A stretch of 64,000 bases of DNA from Sunxiuqinia dokdonensis (GTDB lineage Bacteria; Bacteroidota; Bacteroidia; Bacteroidales; Prolixibacteraceae). Numbering within the stretch: position 1 is the stretch's first letter; each line of letters starts with the position of its first letter. The stretch spans positions 1 to 64,000 of the forward strand of contig NZ_LGIA01000023.1 in NCBI RefSeq assembly GCF_001270965.1, in the 5' to 3' direction. Position numbers and translations under genes: made by a program. The notes below the pieces were generated by a model. The model ran no database searches. It was given only the letters and a program-made list of their open reading frames with translations, and had not been told where the DNA came from. Shown here piece after piece: positions 244-20,006 of this stretch.

Positions 244-1290
244 ATGAGTATGTTACTGTTTTATTTGGCCGTGGCCCTGGGGATCTCCTTCTTATGTTCG
301 ATTCTCGAGGCGGTTTTGCTTTCCGTCAATTACTCCTTCATTTATTTAAAGGAGCAGGAAGGAAGCCAGGCGGCCAAAATACTGAAAGACCTGAAAAATA
401 AAATTGACCGTCCGCTGGCGGCCATACTCACCTTGAATACCATTGCGCACACGGTTGGAGCGGCCGGCGTTGGCGCCGAAGCGGTCAAAGTGTTTGGTGC
501 CGCCCACTTTGGCCTAATCTCGGCTGTGCTGACCATCCTCATCCTGGTGCTCTCCGAAATTATACCAAAGACCATTGGAGCCAGTTTTTGGCGCGAGCTT
601 TCCCTGCCTGCAGCACGAGTCATTCATCTGTTGATTATCATCACTTACCCACTAGTACTTTTTTCAGAATTTATTACCCGTGCCGTTTCCAAAAACAAAC
701 CAGAGCAGTCAGTCAGCCGCGAAGAAGTTGCTATGCTGGCTTCGCTGGGGTTGGATGAAGGTATATTTAAGGAGACCGAAAGTAAAATCATCATCAACCT
801 GATTCGGCTGCGCGATATTAAAGTCAAAGAGATCATGACTCCGCGCACCGTCATGCTGGCAGCACCCGACACCATGACTTTATCCAACTTTTTTGGGCAG
901 GAAAGTTTCTTTCAGTTTTCACGGATTCCGATTTACCAGGAAAGTATCGACAAAATTACCGGCTACGTTCTGAAACAGGATGTGATGGAAAAACTGGCTG
1001 CCGGCGCCACCGAAGATTTACTGGCATCACAAAAACGAGAAATTGTGGTTTGCTACGAGAATATTACGGTGCCGGTTCTGTTCGAAAAACTATTATTTAA
1101 CAAAGAACACATCGCCCTGATTATTAATGAATATGGTGGAACAGAAGGATTGGTAACCATGGAAGACGTCATGGAAACCATCCTGGGGTTGGAGATTACG
1201 GACGAAAAAGATATTCAGACGGATATGCAACAGCTCGCCCGCGACCGCTGGGCCAAACGGACGAAAGATATCAATATTGGTCACGAGTGA
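244..1290 (+). CDS. CNNM-domain (DUF21) / CBS-pair membrane protein, CorC/HlyC-like
   Basis: A 348-residue inner-membrane protein of the CNNM (DUF21) plus CBS family, whose members are linked to divalent-cation (Mg/Co) efflux. The N-terminal ~150 residues hold hydrophobic segments, including the LEAVLLSV stretch and an SEIIPKTIG motif typical of CNNM. Two CBS motifs follow: one starting near KEIMTPRTVM and one ending in NEYGGTEGLVTMEDVMETILG. The protein stops shortly after the second CBS, so the C-terminal CorC_HlyC domain of longer homologues is absent. A TTG-initiated extension exists from 190, but the ATG at 244 lies directly before the first membrane helix and was chosen. The transported ion cannot be told from sequence. 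Confidence 0.9.
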   Translation: MSMLLFYLAVALGISFLCSILEAVLLSVNYSFIYLKEQEGSQAAKILKDLKNKIDRPLAAILTLNTIAHTVGAAGVGAEAVKVFGAAHFGLISAVLTILILVLSEIIPKTIGASFWRELSLPAARVIHLLIIITYPLVLFSEFITRAVSKNKPEQSVSREEVAMLASLGLDEGIFKETESKIIINLIRLRDIKVKEIMTPRTVMLAAPDTMTLSNFFGQESFFQFSRIPIYQESIDKITGYVLKQDVMEKLAAGATEDLLASQKREIVVCYENITVPVLFEKLLFNKEHIALIINEYGGTEGLVTMEDVMETILGLEITDEKDIQTDMQQLARDRWAKRTKDINIGHE

Positions 1291-1454
1291 TTGGTTATTG
1301 TATGGGCGCCATGCCAGGAGCCTCCAGCCCTTATGATCTGTGGATTCGGCGTTTTTGAGAAAACAGAATCCGAGCTTGGGAAACCTTCTGCCCCAAAGTA
1401 CAGCTTTCCCATATTTTTTGTTCTTTTGTGGCATTAAAATCAATTTATTGTGCA

Positions 1455-2201
1455 ATGAAAAATGTGCTTGGATATTTGCTGACACCCGTGTACCTACTGG
1501 TTTTTGGCTTGTTGCTGTTGGTGTTTCACCCCGTACAAATGCTTTGCCGCCGACTGGGTGGTTATCATCCGCGAAAAAAGGCGGTCGACATACTCAACTT
1601 CTTGCTTATCTACAGTTTGTCAATCATGGGCTGCCGGATTCGTTTCCGGGGCTTTGAATTGCTCCCTGAGGGACGCCCTTTGATCATTGTATCCAACCAT
1701 CAAAATACCCTGGATATTCCACCCATCGTTTGGGGTTTTCGCAAGCATCATCCCAAGTTTGTGTCGAAGCAGGAACTGGGCAAAGGCATTCCCAGTATTT
1801 CGTATAACCTCAGGCACGGGGGCTCGGCTTTAATTGACCGTAAAAACGGGCGCCAATCAATTGTGGAAATTACCCGCCTGGGAAAACACATCGAAAAAGA
1901 AAACTACGCTGCCAGCATCTTCCCCGAAGGAACACGGAGCAAAACCGGGCGTGTAAAAACCTTCCAACCTGCCGGAATTGCCAGCCTGTTGCGGGCAGCT
2001 CCATCGGCCATCATCGTGCCTTTTGTGATTGACGGCAACTTTGAGCTGATGCCCAAAGGCTACTATCCCATGACTTTTGGAACACCACTGACCTACACCG
2101 TTTTGCCGCCAATCGATCCGGCAGGACGCGACGTGAAAGAACTAACCTTGGAGGTTGAACAGCAAATCAAAAAACACTTGGGACAGGAGATTGAGGGATA
2201 G
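1455..2201 (+). CDS. plsC: 1-acyl-sn-glycerol-3-phosphate acyltransferase (PlsC family)
   Basis: A 248-residue membrane-associated acyltransferase predicted to acylate lysophosphatidic acid to phosphatidic acid in phospholipid synthesis. It has an N-terminal hydrophobic anchor (about residues 5-35). The catalytic HX4D box is NHQNTLD and the acceptor-binding motif is FPEGTRSKTG. Length fits the PlsC family. The ATG at 1455 was preferred over a GTG at 1428 because the extension adds nothing recognisable. It lies 164 bp after the CNNM gene on the same strand. A second, more divergent member of the superfamily sits at 54151-54759 in the carotenoid operon, so this copy is the better candidate for the housekeeping enzyme. 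Confidence 0.9.
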   Translation: MKNVLGYLLTPVYLLVFGLLLLVFHPVQMLCRRLGGYHPRKKAVDILNFLLIYSLSIMGCRIRFRGFELLPEGRPLIIVSNHQNTLDIPPIVWGFRKHHPKFVSKQELGKGIPSISYNLRHGGSALIDRKNGRQSIVEITRLGKHIEKENYAASIFPEGTRSKTGRVKTFQPAGIASLLRAAPSAIIVPFVIDGNFELMPKGYYPMTFGTPLTYTVLPPIDPAGRDVKELTLEVEQQIKKHLGQEIEG

Positions 2202-2539
2202 ATGATTGATTATTGGTCATTGGTCATTAGATCATTAGTCATTTAACTGTCATTCGTCGCTGGTTGAACTTGAAACTCGAAACTTCACGAGCTCGTCATT
2301 CGATCATTAGTCATTTGATAGTCATTGATGGCCATTTAATTGTCATTCGTCGCTGGCTGAACTTGAAACTTGGAACTCGAAACTTTACGAGCTCGTCATT
2401 AGCTAATTGGTGATTGGATGATGAGTTGGTGGGACAGTCAACCAGGCCTGTGCGAACAATTTCGATGTTACACGCTTTTAATGGTAGGCATTCGCCCAAT
2501 GGCGTTCAGTCGAAGACTCATCATTAAAACCACAAGCAA
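2202..2539. repeat. Intergenic region with imperfect duplicated unit
   Basis: This 338-bp gap holds no convincing gene. Bases 2230-2300 and 2302-2400 are imperfect copies of one unit: both start GATCATTAGTCATTT, share CATTCGTCGCTGG, and end ACGAGCTCGTCATT. The second copy carries an extra insert of about 25 bp. Short TCATT/GTCATT words recur through the region. It may be a remnant of a dispersed intergenic repeat family. Confidence 0.7.
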
Positions 2540-2749
2540 ATGAAAACAAAAGAGTACAGCAACGGAGAAATCACGATTTTATGGAAGCCGGATCGATGTA
2601 TCCATTCCGGTGTTTGTGTTAAAACATTGCCTAAGGTTTACAAGCCGATAGAACGACCGTGGATTCAAATTGAAAATGCCACATCGCAGGAGTTGATTGA
2701 TCAGGTTGCCCAATGCCCTTCGGGAGCTTTAAGCATCAAAGGACATTAG
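2540..2749 (+). CDS. Divergent 4Fe-4S mono-cluster protein (YjdI family)
   Basis: A 69-residue protein resembling the divergent mono-cluster ferredoxin family of E. coli YjdI (PF06902-like). Three cysteines are visible in the motif region: C near HSGVC, an upstream C in PDRCIHSG, and one in AQCPSGAL. The CX5C plus CP spacing suits a single Fe-S cluster rather than a classical CX2CX2CX3CP ferredoxin. The next gene (3 bp downstream) encodes a YjdJ-like GNAT protein, reproducing the yjdI-yjdJ pair of E. coli. The electron-transfer partner is unknown. Confidence 0.85.
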   Translation: MKTKEYSNGEITILWKPDRCIHSGVCVKTLPKVYKPIERPWIQIENATSQELIDQVAQCPSGALSIKGH

Positions 2750-2752
2750 CCC

Positions 2753-3037
2753 ATGGCCGAAATCAGACAGGAAGACCATGGCAAAAAGGGACGCTTCGTG
2801 ATTTACGAAGATGGGGAGCTAGCCGGGGAAATGACTTACACCTGGGCCGGGGAATCGCGGTTCATCATTGACCATACCGGAGTAGACGAACGCTATGGCG
2901 GCAAAGGGTTTGGCAAACAACTGGTGATGGAAGCGGTAGCGTATGCCCGTCAAAAAGGAATCAAAATTTTGCCACTCTGCCCCTTCGCAAAAAGGGTATT
3001 TGACAAAGAACCAAAGCTTGCGGACGTCAGGTTTTGA
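2753..3037 (+). CDS. Small GNAT-fold N-acetyltransferase (YjdJ family)
   Basis: A 94-residue single-domain GNAT-like protein of the short YjdJ type (PF14542-like). The acetyl-CoA-binding segment is seen around DERYGGKGFGKQLV, followed by a conserved LCPFAKRVF stretch typical of this subfamily. It starts at the ATG at 2753, 3 bp after the ferredoxin stop, and is probably cotranscribed with it. The acceptor substrate is not known for the family. The convergent export operon ends 43 bp away. Confidence 0.88.
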   Translation: MAEIRQEDHGKKGRFVIYEDGELAGEMTYTWAGESRFIIDHTGVDERYGGKGFGKQLVMEAVAYARQKGIKILPLCPFAKRVFDKEPKLADVRF

Positions 3038-3080
3038 ATGACCACCAAGCCTTTCTGGCACACAACCAGGCACTTCGCCA

Positions 3081-3797
3081 CTAAATAAACCGCTCCCGTT
3101 TTTGTAGATTGAACAATCCGTAGAGAATAAATACCAGCGTTCCGGCCACCAGGAAAATTCGGTTTTTCAGGGCAATGCCTTCCCAAATCATCTCATTCAT
3201 GTTGCGTGGCGGGTTAAACGGGTTCATGAAAATATTCCACATGGTCCGTTCCGTTGCTTCACTAATAATAAGCAGAAAAACACCAAGAATGACCATGACA
3301 ACGGCTGTTCCGTTTCCATTTTTAATGATGGTGGAAAACATAAAAGCCATGCCTCCCAAAAAGAATACCGGGAACATCAGCTGTCGGGTCATTTCGAACA
3401 GGTTAACCGGTGTGAGGAATATGTAGCTGATACCGGCAAAGCCAATGAGCAGCAAAAAGACCAACACGAAGACCAGCACCAAACGCACCAGCCAAACTTT
3501 GTAGCGGTAGTCGGGGATGCCAAACAAGATTTCCAAAATCCCGGCGTCCAGATCATTTTGAATGCCAAAGGTCATCGGGTAAAAGATGAGCAAAATAGCC
3601 GGGAAAAGCAGGGTGTCGTACACAAACTCTTCATCGGGCAGCTCGCCGTTCCACACCGCCATGATGGCCACAAAAGCGAAAAAGGCAAAAGCCGCCAGCA
3701 AAAACCAGATAAAACGACCCCCGAATATGATCCGGAAATTGTATTGGATCATCTTTCCAACAAGGTTCAATGTATTTTTTAGTTTGAGTGTGTTCAT
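3081..3797 (-). CDS. ABC-2-type transporter permease, last gene of the export operon
   Basis: A 238-residue integral membrane protein with about six predicted helices (roughly residues 28-50, 65-85, 105-130, 140-160, 165-185 and 215-232), typical of ABC-2 permeases. It contains no ATPase domain. It is the last gene of the minus-strand operon, directly after the RND-ABC fusion. The fusion's C-terminal ATPase lacks another obvious permease, so this protein is its natural partner (inference). A palindromic repeat pair fills the 130-bp gap between them. The exported substrate cannot be predicted. Confidence 0.85.
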   Translation of the reverse strand: MNTLKLKNTLNLVGKMIQYNFRIIFGGRFIWFLLAAFAFFAFVAIMAVWNGELPDEEFVYDTLLFPAILLIFYPMTFGIQNDLDAGILEILFGIPDYRYKVWLVRLVLVFVLVFLLLIGFAGISYIFLTPVNLFEMTRQLMFPVFFLGGMAFMFSTIIKNGNGTAVVMVILGVFLLIISEATERTMWNIFMNPFNPPRNMNEMIWEGIALKNRIFLVAGTLVFILYGLFNLQKRERFI

Positions 3798-3832
3798 GTT
3801 GTTCGCAATGATTGGTATTAATTGATCAAGTC

Positions 3833-3892
3833 ATCCTGAACATGTTTCAGGATCTCATCACTCTGAAACAGATTCCGAAACAAGTTCGGAAT
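3833..3892. repeat. Paired palindromic (REP/BIME-like) element inside the operon
   Basis: Two stem-loops lie in the gap between the fusion gene and the last permease. One is ATCCTGAA (3833-3840) with TTCAGGAT (3846-3853). The other is ATTCCGAA (3872-3879) with TTCGGAAT (3885-3892). The pair is flanked by GTCAT on the left and ATGAC on the right, so the whole element is itself an inverted arrangement. Similar palindromes are common in Bacteroidota intergenic regions. Its position could stabilise mRNA or reduce expression of the last gene. Confidence 0.75.
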
Positions 3893-3927
3893 GACTCCTC
3901 TTAAACTCAGGCAATAATATCGCCCCA

Positions 3928-6900
3928 TTATTTCAAATCCTTTATCAAACACAAATAAGCATCTTCCAGCACCGGCTTGGCCATGATGGCTCCATCAGCC
4001 GGCTTTTTGTGGCTCAGCATCCGTACCCGGATATTGTCGCCCACCCGCATGTGATGGGTTACCATGTGCTTGTTCGGCATTTTATCGAAGTCGGACGCAG
4101 GCACATCATACTGCCAGACCAGATTATCGGCCAGGTTCACCATGTCGATCGGTGTGCCGTGATATTTCACCTGTCCCCGGTTGATCACCGCTACCTGGTT
4201 GCACGAGCTCGAAATGTCTTCGATAATGTGCGTTGAGAAAATGACGATGCGCTCGCGGCTCAGCTCAACCAGCAGGTTCCGGAACCGGATGCGTTCGCGC
4301 GGATCAAGGCCAGCCGTGGGTTCATCCACCACCAAAATCTTGGGCAGGTGAAGCAGAATTTGTGCAATACCGATGCGCTGTTTCATTCCGCCGGAGAAGG
4401 AGCCAATTTTATCGCCCCGCTTTTCCCACATGTGTACCGCCTTCAGAACATACTCAATTCGCTCGCGCCGTTCTTTCGCATCCGTCAGGCCTTTTAGCAA
4501 CGCCTGATAATCCAGAAACTCCTGGGCGGGCATGGCTTCGTAGGTTCCAAACTCCTGCGGCAGGTAACCGATCAGGCCTTGCAGCTCTTCGCGCTTTTCC
4601 TGTGTATCAATCCCGTTGATCCAGACCTTGCCGTAGCTCTGTTCAAAAATTCCGCAGATGATCCGCATCATGGTCGACTTGCCCGCGCCATTGGGCCCCA
4701 ACAAGCCAAACATGCCGGTACCAATTTCGAGCGAAACGCCATTCAGCGCTTTAAACGGAACCTTACGCTTGCCAATCACCGGAATCTGTTTCACCAATCG
4801 CAAAGTTGCTCTTCTGAGGTTTCCAAAGCGCCCGGTGATACGGTCAATGTTCACTTTTTCTTCATACAATCGTTTGGCTGTAACTGAAATCAGCAAAGCC
4901 AGGTACCACAACACCGCAAAAGCGACGACAAACCCAATGAAGTCGGTTTTCTTCCAAAGAATAAATAATTCGACCAAAGGTAACAGCCAGTACAAAAACA
5001 GTATTGCATATTTCTGAATCAACTTATAAACACCTTTTTTGCTTACTGCATGCCGGTGATCCAGGTAAATGGCCACTGGTTTCCATATCTGGTTGAGATA
5101 CAAGTAAATCATGACCAGCATAAAACTGATCCAAAATACCGAACTCAAAAAGAAAAAGGTAAAATAGATCATGAAAGCCAGCAAGGGCAATTGCCAGATA
5201 AGTTGATCAAATTCTTTAATGGAGTGGTAATCCTTTTCCAGTCCTGCCCGGCGCCGGATATTCAAACCACCGGCCCACTCGCGTGAAAAACGTCCCGGAC
5301 GATCATAAATTTTCACCAGGTTTTGAATGACAATATGAACCCGTTCGTCGGGTGCAACCAGTCGGGTTCCCGCTTTTTTCAGGCTATTCAACACAAACCA
5401 GGTGACTCCCGGAATCAGCACCACGGCTAACACCGTATCGAGCAACTGCCAGGTCAGCTCATCTACTTCAATATAAATCATGGCCAAGGTGCCCGCCATG
5501 GCAGCAATCTGGAACACCTTTAATTTCCAGTCCAACTGGTTGAACCACTCCAGCGCACTTTCGAGCCCCGAATAAAATGTCGGGATAAAAATGAGTGTCA
5601 GCACGGTGCTCAGCGCCAGTCCGCCAATGACAATGATGGCAAACGGAGCTCCAATCACACTCACATATTCAGCTTGGCCCATAGCCAGCGGCACCATCGC
5701 AACAATGGTGGTAATGGTGGTAATCAGGATGGGGCGAACGCGCGACAAGCCGGCAGTCATCAAGGCACGCGGACGCCGGTAGCCCTGCTTACGTAATATA
5801 TTGCTGTAGTCGATCAGAATAATGCCATTGTTGACCACCACGCCCAACAGGATCAGGAAGCCAATCATGGTGTTGGCATTGAACAGGCTGTTGCCCGTCA
5901 GGATTAGCGCCAACAGCGAGCCGATGGCAGCCAGCGGAATGGAAAACAGCAAGACAAATGGTGTGGCAAACGACTCAAACACCGAAGCCAGAATCATAAA
6001 AATAAGGATGATGGCCGCCAGAATCAGGAATTTAAATTCGCCCAGATCATCCTCTTCATGAATAACTTCGGCCGCCACGCCCGCCGGAAAATTATACGAA
6101 GCAATCAGTTCATCAATCTCGAAGCGGTACGATTCCAGCAGTTCGTTTGACTGCCGGGCTTCATCAATCAGGCTGTAGGTTATTTCAATTTGCTTTTCCT
6201 GGTTCACCCGGTTAATACCGGCCAATCCCCGGGCGTAAACCAATTGGGTGAATTTTTGCAGGTCGTGTAAACCGCCTGCCGCATCGCTCACCTGCAGCAC
6301 CTTCAAATCGTCCATGGTTCGGGGCGGCTCTTCTTCCAAAGGATCTTGCTCGCCTTGCCGAATGATGATTTCGTATTCATCGAGCCCTTGGTTAAACTGT
6401 ACGCCCGTTGAAATTTCGCCTGAAAAAGAGTTCAGCTCACTGGTGACCTGATTCATGTTGATGTTGTACTCGGTCATCAGCAAAGGATCAAACAACATGT
6501 GCACTTCCGGCCTGTTGTCGGACACGTTGAGCCGCACGCGGTTGATAAATTCAAGTTCATCCAAAAAGTATTCAATGTCTTCCGCTACGGTTTGCATCAT
6601 CTCAAAATCCTGCCCCTTCAGCACCACTTTCTCCTCGTTGCTGCCAATCCCCAACAGGCGCTGAAAATTGCCCATCATGTTACGTCCGCCGCCAAAGCCG
6701 CCGCCACCTCCGCCTCCGGAGCTACTTTGCTCGAAGGAGATTTCAGCCGCACCAACGTTTCTGGTCAGCTCGCCCACCACCGATTTAATCTCAGCAAAAT
6801 TTCGTCCATCAATCTTTTCAAAATCTTCCAATAGTTTTACAGTGACCACCGCCTCTTCCTCTTCAATCGTGCTAATCACATCCTGTTTTTCTTTCAGGTC

Positions 6901-8646
6901 GGCCAGCTTTTCTTCAATCTTACTCACCGTTTCATCGGTCGTTTCAAGGCTTGAGCCCGAAGGCATAGTAATATACAGGTGAATCTGATCTTCTTCCACC
7001 TCCTGCAAGGAGCTGACGCTGATCGCCAAACTACCAAATACCGTGATAAAAAAGATGACGACTGCTCCGATAATCGTTCCGGCAGGATTGCGCATGCACG
7101 ACTTGAGCAGCAACAGGTACACCTGCACCATCCGGTTGTTGGTGGTTACTTTTTCAAACGAAATGGCCTTGCCACTTTTCCGTTTCAGAATGAAGTGAAT
7201 AGCCATGGGCACAAACAGCAGTGCCACGACCAGCGAAACGAGCAAGGTCGAAATGATGGAAACCCCTACGTTTTTGCCCAGCATTTCAATCATGAAATTG
7301 GTGGAGAAAACAAAGGGCAAAAACACGGTAATGGTGGTCAGTGTGGCCGCCACGATTGATCGCCACACCTCGGTGGTTCCTTGGGTGACGGCCGAGTCCG
7401 GTTCCATCCCCTTACCCGCCAGCCGGTATATATTTTCGAGCACCACCACACTGTTGTCGAGCAACATACCAATAGCCAGCGCCATACCCACCAGCGTCAG
7501 GCTGTTTAAAGTGATATCATAAGCGTAAAATAAGTTGAAAGCAGTAAACACCGACACGGGAATGGCCAGCGCGATGAAGGCGACAATGCGAATATTTTTC
7601 AGAAACATCCAGAGCACAAACACGGCCATCAATCCACCAACCAATGCCAGGTTGATGATCTGGTCGATATTTTTCTCCATGGTTTCGGCCGAATTATCCT
7701 GAACAAACAGTTCGACATCCTTACGGGCCAGCTTCTCATTGAGTCGTTCTACCAGCTCCAACGTCTTATGCGACAGTTCAATCTGGTTGGCCTGCGAGTC
7801 GTTAATCAGGCGAATGGTCACCGCATCCTGCCCGTTCACGCGGCTGTAGCTGGTTTCTTCTTTCACCCCAAACCGAACGTTGGCAATATCTTTTAACAAG
7901 ATGGGGCCTTCGGCAACCACCAGGTTTTCCAGATCACTCACCTGATCATACTCGGCGGTAACATGGACAAAGTAATGCTTTTCCTTTTCTTTCACAGCAC
8001 CCACATAGGTGCGCGATTGGGAGTTTTGCGACAGCAGTGAACGCACCTGCCCCGGGGTAATATTATAAGCTTCGCAGGCCTCCATATTCAAAATCACTTC
8101 AATGGATTTTTCCTGCCCGCCAAACACATTCACACCGGCAATGCCATCCAGGTTTTCCAGGGCGGGTGCAATATCCTCATCAGCGATGTTTCTGATCCGG
8201 TCAACACCGCCACTGCCGCGCGCTTGCAGCTCCATAAACTGGTTGCTCATTTGCGACAGGTCCACCCGGTTCACGCTCACCTGGACTCCTTCGGGCAAGC
8301 TCCCTTGTATCTCATTGATTTTTTCCTGAAGTTTGAGATAGGCGAAACTGAAATCAACTCCTTTCTGGTAGTAAACAACCACGGTTCCCATGCGGGAGGT
8401 GATATTCGACTCGAGCGACTCGATGCCTTCGAGCGTTCCCACCGCACCTTCAATGGGAACGACCACCTGATTTTCGAGGTACTCCGGATCGGCTTCCTGG
8501 TTTGAAACAGCCTGAACAAACAGGAACGGGAGCTCTGCGTTGGGCAACAGCTCCACACCCAGTTGTTTATAAGAGACGTAGCCCAGCAGGGTTAGTCCTA
8601 TAAACAACATGCTGATCAGGGTCTTTCTATCGATTATAAATTTCAT
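3928..8646 (-). CDS. RND efflux permease fused to an ABC ATPase domain
   Basis: A single 1572-residue reading frame joining two transporter classes. Residues ~1-1035 form an AcrB/HAE1-like RND pump: N-terminal helix, two large periplasmic loops, two six-helix blocks, and a TM4 motif with D397-N398 (LLDNSVVV), keeping the first proton-relay aspartate. Residues ~1040-1280 add several extra hydrophobic segments not found in normal RND pumps. Residues ~1282-1572 are a complete ABC ATPase: Walker A GPNGAGKST (K1323), Q-loop LPQEFG, signature FSGGMKQ, Walker B VVDEPTAGLD (E1442), and H-loop STHI. A poly-Gly stretch lies at ~640-658. ATG 8646 was chosen over GTG 8685 because RND pumps usually begin MKFIIDRK-like. 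The ATPase domain closely resembles the stand-alone ATPase at 17840-18733. Confidence 0.9.
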   Translation of the reverse strand: MKFIIDRKTLISMLFIGLTLLGYVSYKQLGVELLPNAELPFLFVQAVSNQEADPEYLENQVVVPIEGAVGTLEGIESLESNITSRMGTVVVYYQKGVDFSFAYLKLQEKINEIQGSLPEGVQVSVNRVDLSQMSNQFMELQARGSGGVDRIRNIADEDIAPALENLDGIAGVNVFGGQEKSIEVILNMEACEAYNITPGQVRSLLSQNSQSRTYVGAVKEKEKHYFVHVTAEYDQVSDLENLVVAEGPILLKDIANVRFGVKEETSYSRVNGQDAVTIRLINDSQANQIELSHKTLELVERLNEKLARKDVELFVQDNSAETMEKNIDQIINLALVGGLMAVFVLWMFLKNIRIVAFIALAIPVSVFTAFNLFYAYDITLNSLTLVGMALAIGMLLDNSVVVLENIYRLAGKGMEPDSAVTQGTTEVWRSIVAATLTTITVFLPFVFSTNFMIEMLGKNVGVSIISTLLVSLVVALLFVPMAIHFILKRKSGKAISFEKVTTNNRMVQVYLLLLKSCMRNPAGTIIGAVVIFFITVFGSLAISVSSLQEVEEDQIHLYITMPSGSSLETTDETVSKIEEKLADLKEKQDVISTIEEEEAVVTVKLLEDFEKIDGRNFAEIKSVVGELTRNVGAAEISFEQSSSGGGGGGGFGGGRNMMGNFQRLLGIGSNEEKVVLKGQDFEMMQTVAEDIEYFLDELEFINRVRLNVSDNRPEVHMLFDPLLMTEYNINMNQVTSELNSFSGEISTGVQFNQGLDEYEIIIRQGEQDPLEEEPPRTMDDLKVLQVSDAAGGLHDLQKFTQLVYARGLAGINRVNQEKQIEITYSLIDEARQSNELLESYRFEIDELIASYNFPAGVAAEVIHEEDDLGEFKFLILAAIILIFMILASVFESFATPFVLLFSIPLAAIGSLLALILTGNSLFNANTMIGFLILLGVVVNNGIILIDYSNILRKQGYRRPRALMTAGLSRVRPILITTITTIVAMVPLAMGQAEYVSVIGAPFAIIVIGGLALSTVLTLIFIPTFYSGLESALEWFNQLDWKLKVFQIAAMAGTLAMIYIEVDELTWQLLDTVLAVVLIPGVTWFVLNSLKKAGTRLVAPDERVHIVIQNLVKIYDRPGRFSREWAGGLNIRRRAGLEKDYHSIKEFDQLIWQLPLLAFMIYFTFFFLSSVFWISFMLVMIYLYLNQIWKPVAIYLDHRHAVSKKGVYKLIQKYAILFLYWLLPLVELFILWKKTDFIGFVVAFAVLWYLALLISVTAKRLYEEKVNIDRITGRFGNLRRATLRLVKQIPVIGKRKVPFKALNGVSLEIGTGMFGLLGPNGAGKSTMMRIICGIFEQSYGKVWINGIDTQEKREELQGLIGYLPQEFGTYEAMPAQEFLDYQALLKGLTDAKERRERIEYVLKAVHMWEKRGDKIGSFSGGMKQRIGIAQILLHLPKILVVDEPTAGLDPRERIRFRNLLVELSRERIVIFSTHIIEDISSSCNQVAVINRGQVKYHGTPIDMVNLADNLVWQYDVPASDFDKMPNKHMVTHHMRVGDNIRVRMLSHKKPADGAIMAKPVLEDAYLCLIKDLK

Positions 8647-8683
8647 CAGTAAATAATTTGTTTTCAGTGGTCTGATGGAACTC

Positions 8684-8734
8684 ACATGTTGCTGAAAATT
8701 ATTTTCACTAGTGTTTATGTGCGGAGCAACATGT
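8684..8734. promoter_or_regulatory. Stem-loop in the gap before the RND-ABC fusion gene
   Basis: The 159-bp gap between the two RND genes contains perfect 10-bp inverted arms, ACATGTTGCT at 8684-8693 and AGCAACATGT at 8725-8734, separated by 31 bases. On the transcribed minus strand this forms a hairpin 38 bases before the chosen ATG at 8646. It lacks a T-run, so an intrinsic terminator is unlikely. It could be an mRNA-processing or stabilising structure or a protein-binding site. Confidence 0.55.
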
Positions 8735-8805: not shown

Positions 8806-11800
8806 TCAATTATGATTTCTGATCCGGTCTTTAATCCCTTCAATGGCTTCGTACATGCACGGAATCACAACCAGGGTCAACAAGGTTGAGGTTACCAGCC
8901 CGCCGATAACGGCCAGCGCCATGGGTGAACGCAGCGAAGCACTTTCGCCAAGCCCCAATGTAAGCGGGAACAAAGCCAGAATGGTGGTTAAACTGGTCAT
9001 GATGATGGGGCGAATCCGCTGCTGGCCGGCTTGTAAAATAGCCTCCAAACGTTCCATTCCTTCATTTCGAAGTTGAAGAATCCGGTCGACAAAGATGATG
9101 GAGTCGTTTACCGCAATGCCCACCAGCATGATGATCCCGATGTAGGCCATGATGTTCAGCGTTTTGCCCAACATGAAAAATACGAGGATGGAGCCAACCA
9201 CCGCCAGCGGAATGGTCAGCAAAATGGTGAATGGATGCAACAACGACTCGAACTGGGAGGCCAGCACCATGTAAACCAGTATGATTGACAGGATCAGTGC
9301 AAAACTTAAACTGGCCATCGACTCTTTCCGCTTGGCTTCTTCACCACTAATGTTGACTTGGTAGTCCGGCGGAATATTCATTGGCGCGATGGCTTCCTGA
9401 ATGTCTTTCACCGCCCGGTCGAGCGGCATGTCTTTTTCCAGCTGCCCGGTTATTTTGCCAATCCGGTTTTGATTGCGCCGATACACTTCTTTCGGCGACT
9501 GACCAATCCGGATTTCAGCCAATTCGTTCACCATAAATTGTTGGTTCGAGCTGGTAATCTTCAACTCGTCCAGCTGCGAAAGCCCCTTGTCGGGCACTTT
9601 AATGACAATGTCTTGCATTTCGCCTTCGCGTTTCACCTGACCCGAGGCTTGGCCAATCAATTGATCCTGAATTTGGGAAATGATGTTCGTCACGCTCAGG
9701 TTGTACATGCCTGCACGCAGTCGGTCAACCAGGATTTCCACTTCGGGCGAACCTTCTTCCAACGATGACTCGAAATTGTACATGCCCGGCAAACCTTCCA
9801 CCCGGCTTTTTACTTCCGCAGCGAGCGTTTCAATCACCTCCAGATCTTCGCCCTGAACTTCAATCACCAAAGGTGCTTCGTCAGTTCCCATGATGCTTTT
9901 CAGGGCAGTCTCATCCTGCTGATAGCTGATTTCCATCCCCGGAATCTCCCCCACCGCCTGGCTAATTTTCCGAATGGCATCGGTGGAAGCCAGTTGGCTT
10001 TCGGGACTCAAAATCAGTTTGATGGTGGCTGTATTTTCACCCTGAAAAATATCGGTTGCCGAACCGCCAACGCCACTTGACGGACCCACATGACTGAATA
10101 CCGTCTCCAGGTTTTCGCCCAGTAATTCGGTCACAATGGCTTCCATATTTTCAACAGCAGCAGTGGTCCGTGCCAGCCGGGTTCCTTCCTGCAAACGAAT
10201 GTCCAAGCTAAATTCACGGGTTTCCGTTTTGGGCATAAATTCCGTCCCAATGAAGGGAAGCAACAGCGCCGATCCACCAACAAGAACGGTGGCCAGCACA
10301 ATAATCGTCCACTTCATTTTCAGTATTCTTGCCAGAAAATGACCGTAGCCTTTCACCTGAACCGAACGCGAGCGCACTTTCTTTTTCTTATTTCGATAAA
10401 ACAGGTCGAACAACATGGGAATAACCAAAATGGCGACGGCCAGCGACGAAATCAGAGAAAACGCCACAGTCCAGGCCTGGTCCTTAAAGAGTTCGCCCGA
10501 AGCGCCATGCAAATACACAATGGGCAAAAACACGATGATGGTGGTGATGGTGGAAGCTGTGATGGCACCGCCAACCTGGGCTGTCCCTTCAATGGCTGCT
10601 TCGCGAACGGACATGCCCGACTCGTGGTTTCGGAAAATGTTTTCCATCACCACAATGGCATTGTCAACCAACATACCGGCACCCAGTGCCAGCCCTCCCA
10701 GAGTCATAATATTCAGGCTAAGCCCGTTGAAATACATCAGATTGAAGGTGGCAATAATGGAAATGGGAATGGCGATGCTGATAATTAAAGTACTGCCGGC
10801 ACGACGAAGGAAAAGAAAAAGCACAAAAACGGCCAACACAATTCCAAACAAGGCCGACTCCTCTACTTCATTAATCGCGTCGCTGATAAAACTCCCCTGG
10901 TTGGTCACCAGTTGTAACTCATAACCGGGCAATGCCTTTTGAATATCTTTCAGGCCCGCGTTAATTTCCTCCACCGCTTTTACTGTGTTAAACTTGGTTT
11001 CCTTATAAATGGAAAGGCCCAAACAACGCTTGCCATTGAGGCGCACGATATTGTCGGCTTCCTTGTTTTGAAAGCTGACCTTGGCCACTTCGCGTAAAAA
11101 GATGGGGGCAAAAGCCGCTGCTTCGTTGTCGGCTGCAACCTGTTTGTAGCCGACAATGACATTTTCAAAATCCTCAATATCGGTCAGTAGGCTGACTCCC
11201 TTGACCACATAACGCAAGCCCATTTCTTCGATGCTTCCACCCGAAATACTCTGGTTGAAGCTCGCAATGCGGCTACTGATTTCGTCCATCGTCAGGCCAA
11301 AAGCATCGAGCAGGTAGTCACTGGTTTCAATCAACACCTCCACATCCTCGGCACCTGAAACTTCCACTTCGGCGACTCCTTCGAGGCGAATCAGTTCGTT
11401 ACGGATATAGTTGTCGGCTACTTTGCGCAGCTCGTTCATGTTATTAATGGTCGGATGACTCAGTCCCACAAGCATCACCGGCGACGAGTTGGGATCGTGC
11501 TGTGTAATGTTGATGGCGTCGATATCCTGGTTTTGGGAGAAGGAAGTCACGGCTTTCTGCAAATCCAGAAAGGCATCATCCATATTTTTGTTCCAGGCAT
11601 ATTCAACGGTAATTTGGGCGCTTCCCACCTTCGACACCGACGACACTTCCACCACATCGGATTGGCGGATAGCCAAGGCCTCGAGGTTTTCAACAAACTG
11701 GCTTTCCATCTCTTCCGGTGGCCGTTCGCCCGACTCCAGTTCGATAAACAGGCGCGGGCTGTTTAAGTCCGGGAAAAGGTCAACGCCCAGCTTGTCGTAC

Positions 11801-11886
11801 GAGATGTAGCCCAGCAGAACCACCCCAAGCACCATCATCAAAACGGTAACCGGATACTTGACCGAAAATTCGCTTAACTTCTTCAC
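8806..11886 (-). CDS. RND efflux pump permease (AcrB/HAE1 type)
   Basis: A 1026-residue inner-membrane RND pump of normal length. It has the usual layout: N-terminal helix, periplasmic loop, six-helix block, second periplasmic loop, second six-helix block. The TM4 relay motif reads MLVDNAIVV with D408-N409, so the first aspartate of the classical DD pair is retained and the second is Asn. Together with the adaptor (12 bp upstream) and TolC it forms a tripartite exporter across the envelope, driven by the proton or sodium gradient. A second RND gene follows in the same operon, reminiscent of MdtB/MdtC pairs that form mixed trimers (inference). Substrate unknown. Confidence 0.93.
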   Translation of the reverse strand: MKKLSEFSVKYPVTVLMMVLGVVLLGYISYDKLGVDLFPDLNSPRLFIELESGERPPEEMESQFVENLEALAIRQSDVVEVSSVSKVGSAQITVEYAWNKNMDDAFLDLQKAVTSFSQNQDIDAINITQHDPNSSPVMLVGLSHPTINNMNELRKVADNYIRNELIRLEGVAEVEVSGAEDVEVLIETSDYLLDAFGLTMDEISSRIASFNQSISGGSIEEMGLRYVVKGVSLLTDIEDFENVIVGYKQVAADNEAAAFAPIFLREVAKVSFQNKEADNIVRLNGKRCLGLSIYKETKFNTVKAVEEINAGLKDIQKALPGYELQLVTNQGSFISDAINEVEESALFGIVLAVFVLFLFLRRAGSTLIISIAIPISIIATFNLMYFNGLSLNIMTLGGLALGAGMLVDNAIVVMENIFRNHESGMSVREAAIEGTAQVGGAITASTITTIIVFLPIVYLHGASGELFKDQAWTVAFSLISSLAVAILVIPMLFDLFYRNKKKKVRSRSVQVKGYGHFLARILKMKWTIIVLATVLVGGSALLLPFIGTEFMPKTETREFSLDIRLQEGTRLARTTAAVENMEAIVTELLGENLETVFSHVGPSSGVGGSATDIFQGENTATIKLILSPESQLASTDAIRKISQAVGEIPGMEISYQQDETALKSIMGTDEAPLVIEVQGEDLEVIETLAAEVKSRVEGLPGMYNFESSLEEGSPEVEILVDRLRAGMYNLSVTNIISQIQDQLIGQASGQVKREGEMQDIVIKVPDKGLSQLDELKITSSNQQFMVNELAEIRIGQSPKEVYRRNQNRIGKITGQLEKDMPLDRAVKDIQEAIAPMNIPPDYQVNISGEEAKRKESMASLSFALILSIILVYMVLASQFESLLHPFTILLTIPLAVVGSILVFFMLGKTLNIMAYIGIIMLVGIAVNDSIIFVDRILQLRNEGMERLEAILQAGQQRIRPIIMTSLTTILALFPLTLGLGESASLRSPMALAVIGGLVTSTLLTLVVIPCMYEAIEGIKDRIRNHN

Positions 11887-11898
11887 GGTACTTCCTTT

Positions 11899-12957
11899 CT
11901 ATTTGATGATTTTTACTTTCGAACGGCTACGCAAGGTTTCGAACCCTTTCACGACCAGTCGGTCGTTAACTTTCAGGCCGGAAGTAATTTCCACCTGGTC
12001 CTTATTTTCATAGCCCAATGTGACCTGCTTCTGTTCTGCAGTTCCCTGCTCAACAACGAAGACAGATTTTCCCCGTTGGTTTGAAATAATCACATCTTTG
12101 CGAATAACAATCACACTATCCTTACGATCCAGAATAATGTCCGCCTGGACAAACATGCCCGGGCGCAACTTCAGTTCGTCGTTATCGATGCTGAGTTTTC
12201 CGGTAAATGTGCGGGTTTCGGTGCTGATAGCCGGCGACAGCTCTTGCACCACGCCATGAAGCGTGTCTTCAGGCAGGGTATAATTCATCACGCGAACTTG
12301 CTGCCCTTGTTCCAATTGGTTGATGTATTTTTCGGGCAGGTTGACTTCCATCTGAAGCTTTTCATAGCTCATCAGGCTCACGACTTCCGTTCCGCTGGCA
12401 ACCCGGTTGCCTTGCGTAAAATAGGGCAATTTGGTAATTACCCCATTGAAAGGGGCGCGCACCTTCATTTTTTCGAGTTGAATTTTGGCCAGTTCGTAAC
12501 TGTCGCGGGCATTGACCGCTGATACTTCGGCATTGCTCAACTCACTTTGGGTGACTCCGCCTTTGTCGAACAGCGATTTTTGCTTGGTATAGTTTTGTTC
12601 CGATATTTTCAGGTTCAGCTCTTTGGCTTCCATCCCCAGGTTGTTGAGGTACTCCTCATCTTCCAACTCAACAATGACTTGCCCCTTGGTTACCCGGTCG
12701 CCCAGCATAAACGGTTTGCCGGTGCGCGAGTTGGTTGCCAGCGAATACCGTCCAGCCATTTCGGTGGTCAAAATGGCTTCTTTGGTGGCGGTCACGGTCC
12801 CGGTTGTATTGATGGTTTGTTCAATAAATCCGGGTTTCAAATCTACAACAGAAACAGGAATGGCGATTTCAGCTTGCGAATCGGCGCTTTGGTTATTGCA
12901 CGCTGCCAAACCCAGTAGCGCGAATAAAATAACGAAATGATACAAATTGATCTTCAT
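11899..12957 (-). CDS. HlyD/AcrA-type periplasmic adaptor lipoprotein of RND system
   Basis: A 352-residue membrane-fusion protein. The N-terminus is a lipoprotein signal with lipobox LAAC and Cys20, so it is anchored in the inner-membrane outer leaflet. A biotinyl-lipoyl half motif appears near GDRVTKGQVIVELED, followed by an alpha-helical hairpin (residues ~100-155) and beta-barrel/membrane-proximal regions. It bridges the RND pump and TolC. It is the only adaptor in the operon, so both RND proteins probably share it. It ends 12 bp before the RND start and begins 27 bp after the TolC stop. Confidence 0.93.
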   Translation of the reverse strand: MKINLYHFVILFALLGLAACNNQSADSQAEIAIPVSVVDLKPGFIEQTINTTGTVTATKEAILTTEMAGRYSLATNSRTGKPFMLGDRVTKGQVIVELEDEEYLNNLGMEAKELNLKISEQNYTKQKSLFDKGGVTQSELSNAEVSAVNARDSYELAKIQLEKMKVRAPFNGVITKLPYFTQGNRVASGTEVVSLMSYEKLQMEVNLPEKYINQLEQGQQVRVMNYTLPEDTLHGVVQELSPAISTETRTFTGKLSIDNDELKLRPGMFVQADIILDRKDSVIVIRKDVIISNQRGKSVFVVEQGTAEQKQVTLGYENKDQVEITSGLKVNDRLVVKGFETLRSRSKVKIIK

Positions 12958-12984: not shown

Positions 12985-14469
12985 TTAGTTTTTACTTTTC
13001 AGGATTAAGTCTTCCGGAACAATTCCTTTACGCTGCTCAAAGTCATACAAGGATTGAATCTTCAGGTTGAGCAATTCAACTTTGTAATCGATTAAAGCTT
13101 GAGCATAAGACATTTTCTTTTCCGAAAGCTGTGTTTGAAATAAGTTCAGGTCCATACTGGTGAGATCGCCGTTGGCATAACGTTCGAGGTTGATCTCGTA
13201 GGTCAGCTGTGCATTTCGTTCGTTCTGCTCGGCAATATCAATCTGGTTACGGATATTTTGAAGCGAGCGGTACACTTGGCGGATATCCATAATGATCTGG
13301 ACCTTCTCTTGCTCAAAACCCAGCTCCTGAGTTTTAATAACCGCTTCCTGCGCTTTGATTCGTGATTTCTTTTCACCCCAGTCGAATAGCGGAACATTGA
13401 ACGACAGCGAAACCCGCGGGTTGTTGGTTGGATTTTCATAAATGTCACCCAGCTTGCGGTTGTCGCCAATAATCCCGACCGAAAGGTTCATGTTTCCCTC
13501 AAATTCGTTCAAGGCATTGGTTCGGATCAAATCAAATTGCGAGGTTTCAATATCAATCTCGCGCTGGCGAAGCTCCATTCGTGAGCTCAATCCATATTCG
13601 ATGGCCTTTTGCAAATCCACATCCACCGTGTTCACATCCACGCTGGTCATCACCGCAATTTCCTCAAAAATATCCATCCCAATATATTGCTTAAACTGGT
13701 CCTTAAAATTTTCAAGGCTCACCTGCTGATTCTGCACATTCGACTTGGCAGTGGCAAAGTTCAACTCGGCCTGGTACAATTCTTCCCGGGCAGCCAAGCC
13801 GGCGTCCACTTTATTTTTGGTGATTTCGAAACTTTTCTCCGTATTGGCCAATTCATCTTCGGCAATGGTCAGGCTCATTTGTGCCATGTAAACATTGTAG
13901 AAATATTGGGTCACCAGCCGCTCCAGGTTGAGTCGCTGCATGGCATAGCTGAGGTTTGAATTTTCCAAATCCAGTTGCAACTCCTTTAGCTGAAGGCGTA
14001 AGCGGTTGTAGGTAAACAACGGCTGACTGAGGCTCAGGTACAGGTTATTGGTGAAGGATCGGTCTTCAATATTGTTGATGTCGCTGGTACTTTTCTGCCA
14101 TCCAAAACGGTTCACCAGCGACAAGGTTCCATCGGTCACCAAAATGGGCTGCGCAACGGTAAATGTGCCCGATGTTCCAAGCGACTCGTTGGTGTACCAG
14201 CTTGAATAATAATCATCGAAAGAACGGGTCCGACTGTATTCAATCGGATTCAGGCTCAATGAGAACTGCGATTTTAGGGCTGCCTTTTGGGCATTGAGCG
14301 ATTCTTGTGAACGTTCCAGGTTGAGCAACGAGCGCCGGATATCCGGACTGTTTTGCGAGGCGATGTCCAGTGCCCGCTCCAGGTTCAACAATTGCTGTCC
14401 GAAAGCCATGCTGCCCGGAAACAAGGCCAGCAAAATCAGGAATTTGAGTTTTGTGAAAAATCGTTTCAT
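12985..14469 (-). CDS. TolC-family outer-membrane efflux protein
   Basis: A 494-residue outer-membrane channel. A signal peptide (about residues 1-24, ending AFG-QQ) leads into two OEP repeats dominated by long helical segments, e.g. the LERALDIASQNSPDIRRS start of repeat one. It forms the trimeric exit duct of the tripartite pump. It is 27 bp upstream of the adaptor gene and 16 bp downstream of the permease/pseudopeptidase gene on the same strand. Confidence 0.93.
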   Translation of the reverse strand: MKRFFTKLKFLILLALFPGSMAFGQQLLNLERALDIASQNSPDIRRSLLNLERSQESLNAQKAALKSQFSLSLNPIEYSRTRSFDDYYSSWYTNESLGTSGTFTVAQPILVTDGTLSLVNRFGWQKSTSDINNIEDRSFTNNLYLSLSQPLFTYNRLRLQLKELQLDLENSNLSYAMQRLNLERLVTQYFYNVYMAQMSLTIAEDELANTEKSFEITKNKVDAGLAAREELYQAELNFATAKSNVQNQQVSLENFKDQFKQYIGMDIFEEIAVMTSVDVNTVDVDLQKAIEYGLSSRMELRQREIDIETSQFDLIRTNALNEFEGNMNLSVGIIGDNRKLGDIYENPTNNPRVSLSFNVPLFDWGEKKSRIKAQEAVIKTQELGFEQEKVQIIMDIRQVYRSLQNIRNQIDIAEQNERNAQLTYEINLERYANGDLTSMDLNLFQTQLSEKKMSYAQALIDYKVELLNLKIQSLYDFEQRKGIVPEDLILKSKN

Positions 14470-14485
14470 ATGAAATCTGTTACTT

Positions 14486-17400
14486 TTATTGTTTTATCAG
14501 TTTGATTGCATCGGCAACCACCATGCGGGCTTCCGACTGGTTGGTCAATTCAATTTTTGCGGTGTCGGGCGAAAAGTAATACCCGCCAAGCAAGTTCCAA
14601 CCCACTTCCGCAGTTTTCAGGTCAACAAGCACTTCTTCATCGCCATCATCGTGATGCACAATAAAATGGTATTCACCATCATCACCACCCCGGCGCCCCC
14701 GGCGTTCTTCTTTATACACATGAGCATAAACCTGGTAGTAACCTTCTTCTTTGATTGGGACATTCCAGGTGGCCACTTTATTGCCTTCGCCCGAGCGCAG
14801 GTAATAAGCCGAACGAATGTAAGCCCCATAAAAATTGGAATGCGTGGTCAACGTCCAGTTTCGCGGAGCACGCCAGCTCGAAAAACCAGAATATTTGCCG
14901 GTGCTTGTTTCCTCGGTAATCAGCAGCTTGCGCAACAAGCTAGTTTCATCTTCGCCAACCACAGCAAACCCAGCATCCTCATTGTCGAGGATAATTTCGT
15001 TGTCTTCGGCAATACGAACCGGCCTGTCGGTGATGTTTTCTCCCTCGTAAGGAACCGCTTTTTTATCTTCTTCAATATTGTCGAGCGGCAAACGGATTTC
15101 AGACGGAATATTTTTCGACGTCAGCGTATTGATGTTGGCTCCGCGCGGAGTACCACTGAGCAAATAGCTCACTTCCTTGGTTTGGTGCCCTTCGAGATGA
15201 ATCAACTTATTGATGGTTTCGGGTGCGCCACCGCCTCTGCCAAATCCCCCTCCCGGACCTCCGCCCAAGCGAAATTCAACCGAAATAATTCCTTCCACAT
15301 CTTCGGTATTGCTCACCTTAAATTTGACCATGGTTTTCAGCTGATCTCCATCGAGCACGTTCACCGCGGTGACATTGCCAACCAAAAATGCGGGCAACTG
15401 CGTGCTGCTAAACCAACCTTCCATGTAGGGAATCAAATCGATGCCAAATTCATCCAAAATGGCATCGTTAAAATCCTGAATGCTCGAAGCCCTAAATTTG
15501 ACATCCCTCAAGTAATCGTACAGAAAGTCTTCAAATGCTTCTTCCTCCGCTTTGCGTTTAATAACGGAGAATAAGGCCTTTCCTTTCAACTGAATGACAT
15601 TGTCCACAATCTGTTTATGGGTTGGATCATCCAAAATCTCTTCAAAACTTTGGGACAAGAGCGCCAGGTTTCCTTGTTCATCTTCCGACATGCCCTGCAA
15701 ATCGCGCATCCAGCCCATACCCGGATTGGTGGACGCTTGCTTTTTATAAGCTTCAAACACGCGGTCGGCAACCGGCCAACGATCAGACCGAATGTAAAAA
15801 GCGTAATTGTAGAAAAGCGGAAAGGCATAAAAAGCATTTTGCTTTTCCTCAACCTGAACTTCGCCCTGCGTACGACTAAAATCAGGTCGTCCTTGTTCCC
15901 GGGTGAAGGTGGCCAGAAAGTTCTGCAACACCTGGATCTTCTTTTCTTCGGGCGTCAAATTTTCATCACCGCCGCCACCCCAACGGCGTCGCTGATCCAT
16001 GCGCCCGTAAAAGTCGGCTTCATCAATCAGCAAGCCTTTTTCGGGATACAAAATCATTTCGGGTTGAATTTGCTCGCGGGCACCGCTTAAAACCCGTTCG
16101 TACGAATAAAACTGAATGGGCACTTCAACCAGGGAAAAACGCTCAAACGGGTAATACAAATCGACATTTCGTTCAAAGTCCTGGATGGTTTCGGTAATGA
16201 TTCCCGGAATCGTATCTTTTATTTCCTCGAAAAATTCAGAAAAATAATCATGCCCTTTTCGGTAATAAATGCTGAACTCCAGCCCGTCAATTTCTTTGTT
16301 CATTCGCTCGTAATGGCCAATAGCCAGTGAGATTTGAGATTGCGCATGCGAGTTGCTAAACACAAAGCGGCCGCCATCTTCTTCAACAGTGCCTTGCGAA
16401 ACAGCGGTGAGGCCAGGCTGGGTGTTCACTTCGAGCCGGTAGTTGCTAAACTGGCGCGACAGCCATTGTTTGTTTTTCGCGCCAAAGCCGGCACCAGGAA
16501 TCGGGTACCAGTTGTTTTCACGGGTCAGCAGCACATATTCCGGTGTGATAAAAGCATGGCGCTTATCAATTTGGTACATGAAATTGCGGTAAGCCGCCTG
16601 CCGGGTTTCGTCGTCAATATCTAAAAAGCAAGCGGCCTCGTTGATCGTTCCCGAATAGGAAAAGCCGAGTTTCAACTGCTCACCGGGAGCCACTTGCAGG
16701 CGGGTCAGTTCAACCAAGCCCAACTTCCGTTCAAAGGCTTGTTCTTTTCCGTTAACCGTCAGCCGGGTCAAGTTCAAGCCGGGGTTAAGGCTGAATAAAA
16801 CGGTTGACAAAGTTTCGTTCGCATCGTTTCGTGCATCCAGTGTGGCTTCGCAACTGATGGTTCCACCCTGGTGATTGAGCTGAATATCGTAGTTTGAAAT
16901 GGCCAGTTGCTTCACATCCAGGTATTGGTCATTCAGGCTGATCATTTCCTCCCGCAGGTTCTGATTTTTCAGGAACGAACCAACGTGCATACTTCCGAGG
17001 AAAATACCGCCCGCCAAGGCTATGGTTCCAAACAAGAAAGAAAAAATCCGCATGGATTCGGAATGCGGCAAACGGCGCAAAAGCAAGACGGTGTAAAAAA
17101 TAAAGGCGATTCCCAGACTCAAATACATACCCCGGTGGATCAAAATGGTCTCGAGATTGCCGAATCCAACGAAATCGGAAAAAGTGAGCGGAATATTAAA
17201 TGCCATGTAGTCGAACAGGTAATAAACCTTATCCTGAAGATAAAACAGGGAAATGGCCACATAGCCAAGCAAAACCACAAAAGTGACGGCCTGGTTGCGA
17301 ATAATGGACATGATCAGGAACGAAAGCCCCATAATAAAAATCAAGGTCGGCACGCTGATCACCAAAAAATAGGCGCCGTAGGCCAACCAGTTTACCGCCG

Positions 17401-19910: not shown

Positions 19911-19928
19911 TCAAACAGTTAAGCATCC

Positions 19929-19955
19929 AAGGTTGCTCCATGCGGGGCAGCCTTT
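19929..19955 (+). terminator. Intrinsic terminator after TonB-C gene
   Basis: Stem AAGGTTGCTCC / GGGGCAGCCTT with a four-base loop, allowing two G-U pairs, followed by a short T-rich tail. It lies 19 bp past the stop codon. Confidence 0.65.
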
Positions 19956-20006
19956 AATTGTTTAAAGCACCAATGAGGACATTATCAATAAAAAAAACAA
20001 AAAAAC

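Follow-up and report, generated by a model that had tools for sequence, protein, structure and literature searches.

Tripartite pumps of the MacAB-TolC type deliver ABC energy to an adaptor and a TolC-type channel. A large review divides tripartite exporters into those with an ABC, an MFS or an RND engine in the inner membrane (PMC8277102). Two-RND pumps are described as forming MdtB2C heterotrimers (PMC4338810, PMC12802153), and MdtABC and MuxABC, as described, combine two different RND permeases of the HAE-1 type (PF00873) with a TolC-like channel and a single adaptor, and lack any ATPase or ABC permease. An ABC-2/M1-peptidase exporter is listed under TC 3.A.1.145 with the entry Q1D520, of 1200 aa and 13 TMSs (PMC3924187), in which both membrane halves lie on one permease.

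The window analyzed here (the whole 64-kb stretch of Sunxiuqinia dokdonensis DNA) carries a seven-gene cluster with features of each of these systems. As in MdtABC and MuxABC, two different RND genes are co-encoded with one adaptor and a TolC-like channel, but one of the RND proteins has two more helices and an interrupted ATPase. An ABC-2 permease with an M1 domain is present as in TC 3.A.1.145, but the membrane halves appear to be carried on separate proteins, and gene 2 of the cluster is not a single permease combining M1 with about 12 to 13 TM segments. ABC energy would be delivered to an adaptor and a TolC-type channel as in MacAB-TolC, which has no RND protein and in which the membrane fold of MacB differs from ABC-2. 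Each module is already known; neither an RND-ABC fusion nor this combination with an interrupted ATPase was found described in the open-access papers searched, and the earlier note on this DNA had likewise known of no functional description. An ABC exporter half built into an RND subunit, in a widespread and strictly conserved system, breaks the division into ABC, MFS and RND engines.

The RND-ABC fusion protein

The fusion gene (gene 6) occupies positions 3928 to 8646 on the minus strand and encodes 1572 aa from ATG 8646. The frame is a single uninterrupted minus-strand ORF that extends further to GTG 8685 (3928 to 8685, 1585 aa), and residues are numbered here from this GTG, so that D397 and K1323 of the earlier note correspond to D410 and K1336. 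The conserved part of the alignment starts with residue 14, encoded by ATG 8646 and read as M in 74/77 aligned rows, and for this reason the start at 8646, already chosen in the earlier note, is taken as correct.

A full-length RND core was recognized in residues 14 to 1039 (5569 to 8646, minus strand; PF00873, 533.6 bits at a cut-off of 28, profile positions 2 to 1018 of 1021). PF00005 matched residues 1314 to 1458 with 97.1 bits (cut-off 25), and by this match and its motifs the ATPase domain from Walker A to the H-loop, together with the C-terminal part, spans residues 1310 to 1585 (3931 to 4758, minus strand). The closest NCBIfam models to the fused ATPase were GldA and DrrA, both far under their cut-offs.

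Conservation of the motifs was assessed in 77 distinct rows, window included (81 fusions), identical rows and rows below a set identity and 90% coverage having been dropped; a separate alignment was limited to the 53 loci whose frame reached 1560 aa or more. The A-loop tyrosine Y1127, Walker A K1336, Q-loop Q1377, and the signature SGGMKQR were each present in 77/77 rows, the Walker B glutamate E1455 in 76/77 (the remaining row has X), and the H-loop H1486 in 76/77, so that every ABC motif from the A-loop to the H-loop is kept in 76 or 77 of the 77 rows. The TM4 aspartate D410 was kept in all 77. The profiles and motifs agree with the earlier reading of a full RND pump and a complete ABC ATPase in one frame, and the RND permease with its intact ABC ATPase is confirmed as one strongly conserved polypeptide.

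A different RND fusion is encoded in the same genome on contig C63 (locus L002, positions 256 to 4650), with 1465 aa and a C-terminal PF02321 domain. As in gene 6, an RND protein is fused there to an exporter part; the partner is the channel, and no ATPase is present.

An insertion between the A-loop and Walker A

ABC ATPase domains are usually uninterrupted between the A-loop and Walker A. This is also the case in the free paralogue encoded in the cluster, but not in the fused ATPase. The earlier note had described the stretch between the RND core and Walker A as a hydrophobic linker of about 240 residues belonging to neither family. The stretch has two parts, separated by the first strand and A-loop of the ATPase, and the second of them is inserted into the ATPase fold itself.

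The two extra helices after the RND domain lie within residues 1040 to 1113 (5347 to 5568, minus strand; helices 24 to 44 and 48 to 77 of the model), one of them above the cut-off of the hydropathy scan. The length of residues 1040 to 1117 is constant at 78 to 79. The first ATPase strand and the A-loop with Y1127 follow in residues 1114 to 1130 (5296 to 5346, minus strand), ahead of the insertion in residues 1131 to 1309 (4759 to 5295, minus strand), which comprises four helices (model residues 136 to 246) with three hydrophobic segments above the cut-off. Its length was 161 to 206 residues, with a median of 179, in 76/76 fusions measured. Transmembrane helices were assigned by a simple scan of hydropathy together with the models, and the length and joining tests used the 76 rows without X.

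The AlphaFold2 model of residues 1030 to 1585 (47 rows, mean pLDDT 82.4, pTM 0.60) has, in order, two long helices, a strand at 1118 to 1127, shorter helices, the four helices at model residues 136 to 246, and the rest of the ATPase. In structural comparisons with solved ABC proteins, the 50 alignments listed all start at model residues 81 to 88, where this strand lies, and end at 479 to 556; 1vpl, for example, matched with Z 26.4 and rmsd 1.8 over 234 aligned residues. When residues 1114 to 1130 were joined to the ATPase core, the score against the free-ATPase model rose in 76/76 sequences by a mean of 11.3 bits (8.6 to 14.6), compared with a mean of 1.3 bits in the shuffled controls (highest 11.5 of 760); for each of the 76 sequences, the real score exceeded those of all 10 shuffles made from it. 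Another eight linker pieces joined likewise gave means of 0.2 to 1.5 bits (highest 8.8).

Because the A-loop strand precedes the second hydrophobic stretch in the model, in the structural alignments and by the joining score, about 180 residues are inserted in the ATPase domain between the A-loop and Walker A. A plain linker was rejected, since the A-loop strand sits within the hydrophobic stretch. This is an ABC ATPase fold that tolerates the insertion of hydrophobic helices at this place. The reading of the inserted helices as a half ABC-2 permease was not supported by profile comparisons, which gave probabilities of 2.9% with the small permease of the cluster and 0.3% with gene 2, values with which a shared fold remains compatible.

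Three loci depart from the other fusions, L108 with an insertion of 206 residues and L110 and L111 with frames of 1515 and 1536 aa, off the usual length. These deviations may reveal which helices are needed.

Components of the seven-gene cluster

All seven genes are on the minus strand, in the order free ATPase, gene 2, channel, adaptor, second RND, fusion and small half-permease, with intergenic gaps of 18, 16, 27, 12, 159, and 130 bases. As read from their sequences, the products are two RND permeases, an adaptor, a channel, two intact ATPases, and two ABC-2-like half-permeases. The earlier interpretation as a single-protein fusion stands as far as the protein is concerned, but the other five genes of the set were missing from it, above all the free ATPase. 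A promoter and terminator scan gave 16 promoter-like sites against 20.8 expected, no more than chance. Upstream of the cluster, divergent genes for a protein with a TonB_C domain and an MscS-type channel are located at 19206 to 20948.

Gene 1 (17840 to 18733, minus strand) encodes the free ABC ATPase, a GldA/DrrA-like protein of 297 aa with motifs intact in 33/33 rows. It shares 44% identity with the fused ATPase over 268 residues and, judged by this alignment, the two are paralogues.

Gene 2 (14486 to 17821, minus strand) encodes a protein of 1111 aa, annotated from Pfam as an ABC-2 half-permease with an M1-peptidase-like part and a C-terminal Golvesin_C domain. Its seven hydrophobic segments all lie in residues 1 to 275. 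The window protein matched PF12679 with 32.5 bits (cut-off 27.2) and PF25275 with 65.6 bits; in two other gene 2 members PF12679 was below its cut-off. The M1 match was under the Pfam cut-off in 3/3 cluster members scanned (PF01433 in the window, 18.2 bits, cut-off 27.7). HExxH occurred nowhere in 32/34 rows, and the two rows that have it, at residues 886 and 228, do not carry it at the active-site place of the two-gene proteins described below. The M1-like and Golvesin_C part is a possible candidate for a pseudo-enzyme binding module.

Gene 3 (12985 to 14469, minus strand) encodes a TolC-like outer-membrane channel (OEP; PF02321, 151.8 bits), gene 4 (11899 to 12957, minus strand) a membrane-fusion (adaptor) protein (PF16576, 85.5 bits; PF13437, 61.1 bits), and gene 5 (8806 to 11886, minus strand) an unfused RND permease of 1026 aa (PF00873, 706.4 bits).

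Gene 7 (3081 to 3797, minus strand), which the earlier note had suspected to be a permease, encodes 238 aa with six hydrophobic segments and fits the fold of an ABC-2-type half-transporter. Its AlphaFold2 model (pLDDT 86.5), with a short helix at model residues 83 to 92, matched NosY best (7znq_y, Z 16.4, rmsd 3.6, 214 aligned), and the best 50 structural matches, with Z from 16.4 to 13.7, were ABC exporters (NosY, ABCG, ABCH, ABCA, Pdr5, and PmtCD), Z values of about 13 to 14 being reachable by unrelated helical bundles. With Foldseek alone, PmtCD, CcmABCD, ABCG2, and NosDFY were on top at a nonsignificant E of 0.057 or worse, and unrelated folds appeared from rank 17. Six TM segments in a half-permease encoded beside an ATPase, the arrangement of ABC-2 (type V) exporters, are predicted from the model.

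No Pfam family matched gene 7 above its cut-off. Acyl_transf_3 (16.8 bits, cut-off 31) was set aside in favor of the ABC-2 fold, and a sequence relationship with the membrane part of gene 2 was rejected (hhalign probability 0.2%).

RND proteins and relay residues

Of the solved structures, MdtB gave the highest score with each of the two RND proteins. Besides D410, R982 and T989 of the fusion were each kept in 77/77 rows, and we take the three residues to be the equivalents of AcrB D407, R971, and T978. Asparagine is found at N411 in 73/77 fusions and at N952 in 77/77, presumably the positions of AcrB D408 and K940, and likewise in the unfused RND protein at N409 and N927 (79/79 each). Neither protein has the second TM4 aspartate and the TM10 lysine of AcrB. 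AcrB-style proton coupling is therefore not assured, and the fused RND part looks active from its retained residues, perhaps coupled otherwise than AcrB. A Gly-rich run in the periplasmic part of the fused RND domain (residues 654 to 669, window positions 6679 to 6726) is not conserved in the alignment.

Two-gene relatives and a possible origin of the fusion

Seven loci without the fusion (L116, L117, L118, L119, L120, L123, and L124) carry a two-gene unit of an ATPase of about 300 aa, from the same family as those of the cluster, and an ABC-2/M1 permease of 1174 to 1216 aa, with 11 to 14 hydrophobic segments and the M1 HExxH in 7/7. They look like TC 3.A.1.145, an assignment made by size and domains and not against Q1D520. 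An RND relative beside the two-gene units was not found in the stretches examined. Compared with these relatives, the cluster has lost HExxH and gained a Golvesin_C domain, and it has a second ATPase, joined to an RND pump.

Gene 2 aligns mainly to the second membrane half and the M1 region of the two-gene permeases, and for this reason the ABC unit looks split; the alignment is weak, with a best domain E of 6.9e-9 and some members not significant. Since the best HMM match of the small permease to the two-gene permeases had an E of 0.47, its role as the missing first half is suggested by fold and position. The ATPases fell into separate fused, free, and two-gene groups (28, 28, and 7 rows) in a tree whose branch between the fused and the other forms had support of 100/99, which fits one fusion event. 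No root is given for this tree, as the sole outgroup row has far too long a branch and is placed next to the fused ATPases, a position owing to which the fused group counts 2 changes instead of 1. An ABC exporter may accordingly have been split into halves, with one ATPase then fused to an RND pump.

Proposed mechanism and alternatives

On balance we favor the seven genes encoding one trans-envelope exporter, in which a heterodimeric ABC-2 unit is built into a two-RND tripartite exporter. In its favor are the constant gene order, the survival of the parts searched for in a genome where the cluster is broken up, and the lack of gene 2 and the second RND in the tested genomes without the fusion. 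The second, free ATPase with its 44% identity to the fused one makes an ATPase heterodimer likely, and the pair would hydrolyze ATP beneath the two half-permeases. The ABC unit would be held against the RND trimer by the extra helices, two following the RND domain and four inserted in the ATPase. This trimer might be mixed, with two fused chains to one that is unfused, in the manner of MdtB2C. ATP would move the substrate from the cytoplasm or the inner leaflet to the periplasmic side, the M1-like and Golvesin part would help to hold it or pass it on, and the RND trimer, driven by an ion gradient, would push it through the adaptor and the channel to the outside. We infer dual energization by ATP and an ion gradient from the conserved residues of both engines; the substrate is, at a guess, a hydrophobic or peptide-like product or toxicant.

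Tentatively, and at less than even confidence, the exporter may represent a new transporter class, in which one polypeptide is common to an ABC-2 heterodimer powered by ATP and an RND trimer powered by ions, the two being mechanically coupled through the membrane-threaded ATPase. Two fused RND chains and one free chain would then bring together either two fused ATPases or pairs of fused and free ATPases. Several observations count against the favored explanation of one exporter: the AcrB relay residues are replaced by Asn in both RND proteins, the small permease is cast as the missing half from its fold and position, the inserted helices match neither half-permease, the M1 match of gene 2 is below its cut-off, the symmetry of a trimeric RND and a dimeric ABC unit has no simple match, and in G917, one of the tested family genomes without the fusion, a free ATPase from the wider family is nevertheless present. 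With this system nature offers a way to test if a single export cycle can be driven by ATP together with an ion gradient.

It is rather unlikely that the fusion is a tether only, which would keep an ABC-2 exporter and a two-RND pump adjacent for substrate hand-off, each with its own energy and with no mechanical coupling. The parts of both machines are all present with their own motifs kept, fusing one ATPase half alone would suffice for this purpose, and the inserted helices are the least conserved aligned part, with a mean column identity of 48% (A4) compared with 68% (A1). A tether, however, needs no helices within the ATPase fold, yet an insertion of 161 to 206 residues is kept in 76/76 fusions. 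Occasional splitting would also be expected, yet none of the loci examined has the linker and ATPase in a gene of their own behind an RND gene, the break in L027 being near the 3' end of the frame and leaving 1494 aa.

A third arrangement, which we regard as improbable, has ATP serving as a lever or switch. The ABC unit would then carry no substrate and would instead move the periplasmic M1-like and Golvesin_C domains to open or gate the RND pump and channel. ATP-driven movement acts on periplasmic domains in machines of the MacB or FtsEX type. The large M1-related part of gene 2 is in keeping with such a role, as the loss of HExxH in 32/34 rows suggests binding or force transmission and not chemistry. 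The small permease, however, resembles ABC-2 exporters that move substrates or lipids (ABCG, ABCA, PmtCD, and NosY) and not MacB or FtsX, a weak argument as the cargo of the NosY system is unsettled.

Distribution and gene order

A scan of one genome per species across all phyla, by six exact peptide patterns only, found 65 loci. In 62 of these (L005 to L066) the fusion is present, whole or as a fragment at a contig end. Most are titled as Bacteroidales or Prolixibacteraceae, and Tannerella and Portibacter are also among them. One of the carriers, Draconibacterium orientale FH5T, has it in a complete chromosome.

A profile of fusion residues 1030 to 1585 (linker and ATPase) matched 53/60 genomes of the family, in 21/23 genera, 40/295 genomes of the order (any match in 54), 6/395 genomes drawn from the phylum (any match in 9), and 3/294 genomes of another class in the phylum, the order and phylum counts taking only matches that reach past the ATPase into the linker. 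Several of the matched frames in the order and family searches are shorter, about 500 to 1450 aa. As it is near-universal in the family, the cluster probably has a basic envelope role there; carried by many Bacteroidota, it may be a transporter that unites two sources of energy. An assembly or annotation artefact (frameshift or chimera), the outcome that would have undone the earlier reading, has a negligible chance of explaining the fusion, since nothing speaks for it beyond a source assembly in 225 contigs, and 77 distinct fused sequences come from many separate assemblies and isolates and include that complete chromosome.

Altogether 39 loci were fetched with their surroundings: 30 with the fusion, 2 with part of the cluster (L121, close to a contig end, and L122, whose stretch ends inside the cluster), and the 7 two-gene relatives. 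The seven-gene order was identical in 30/30 fusion loci, 29 of which had been picked because the same contig carried both the fusion and the free ATPase; L115, chosen without regard to a free ATPase, has one as well. In L104 the small permease is incomplete in the stretch analyzed. The same order was found in 7/7 further genomes, namely, Tangfeifania diversioriginum, Mariniphaga anaerophila, Draconibacterium sediminis, D. orientale, Sunxiuqinia indica, S. elliptica, and Tannerella forsythia. The distance between the fusion and the free ATPase was 13 to 15 kb in 8/8 named genomes, the eighth being Portibacter (L112); the loci of the other seven were chosen after this spacing had been seen.

Among the scan loci with upstream sequence, the sole exception noticed was L010 of genome G946, in which the fusion and the small permease stand together and the rest of the cluster is elsewhere. 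This genome still encodes the other RND protein (68% identity), the free ATPase, and the adjoining gene 2, over two contigs. Seven family genomes gave no match to the fusion, and five of them were tested for the partner genes, two being single-contig and one only 77% complete. In these five, no gene 2 match was found at E 1e-5, and the best RND at E 1e-100 had 27 to 29% identity in two genomes and was absent from three. Both gene 2 and the second RND were found by the same tests in the control genome G928.

Pairwise distances of the seven proteins correlate at 0.80 to 0.94 (27 rows), as expected from shared vertical descent alone. In locus L100, a frame of 218 aa at positions 1 to 700, just upstream of the free ATPase, has a weak similarity of 29% to gene 2 and is perhaps a further, duplicated copy of it.
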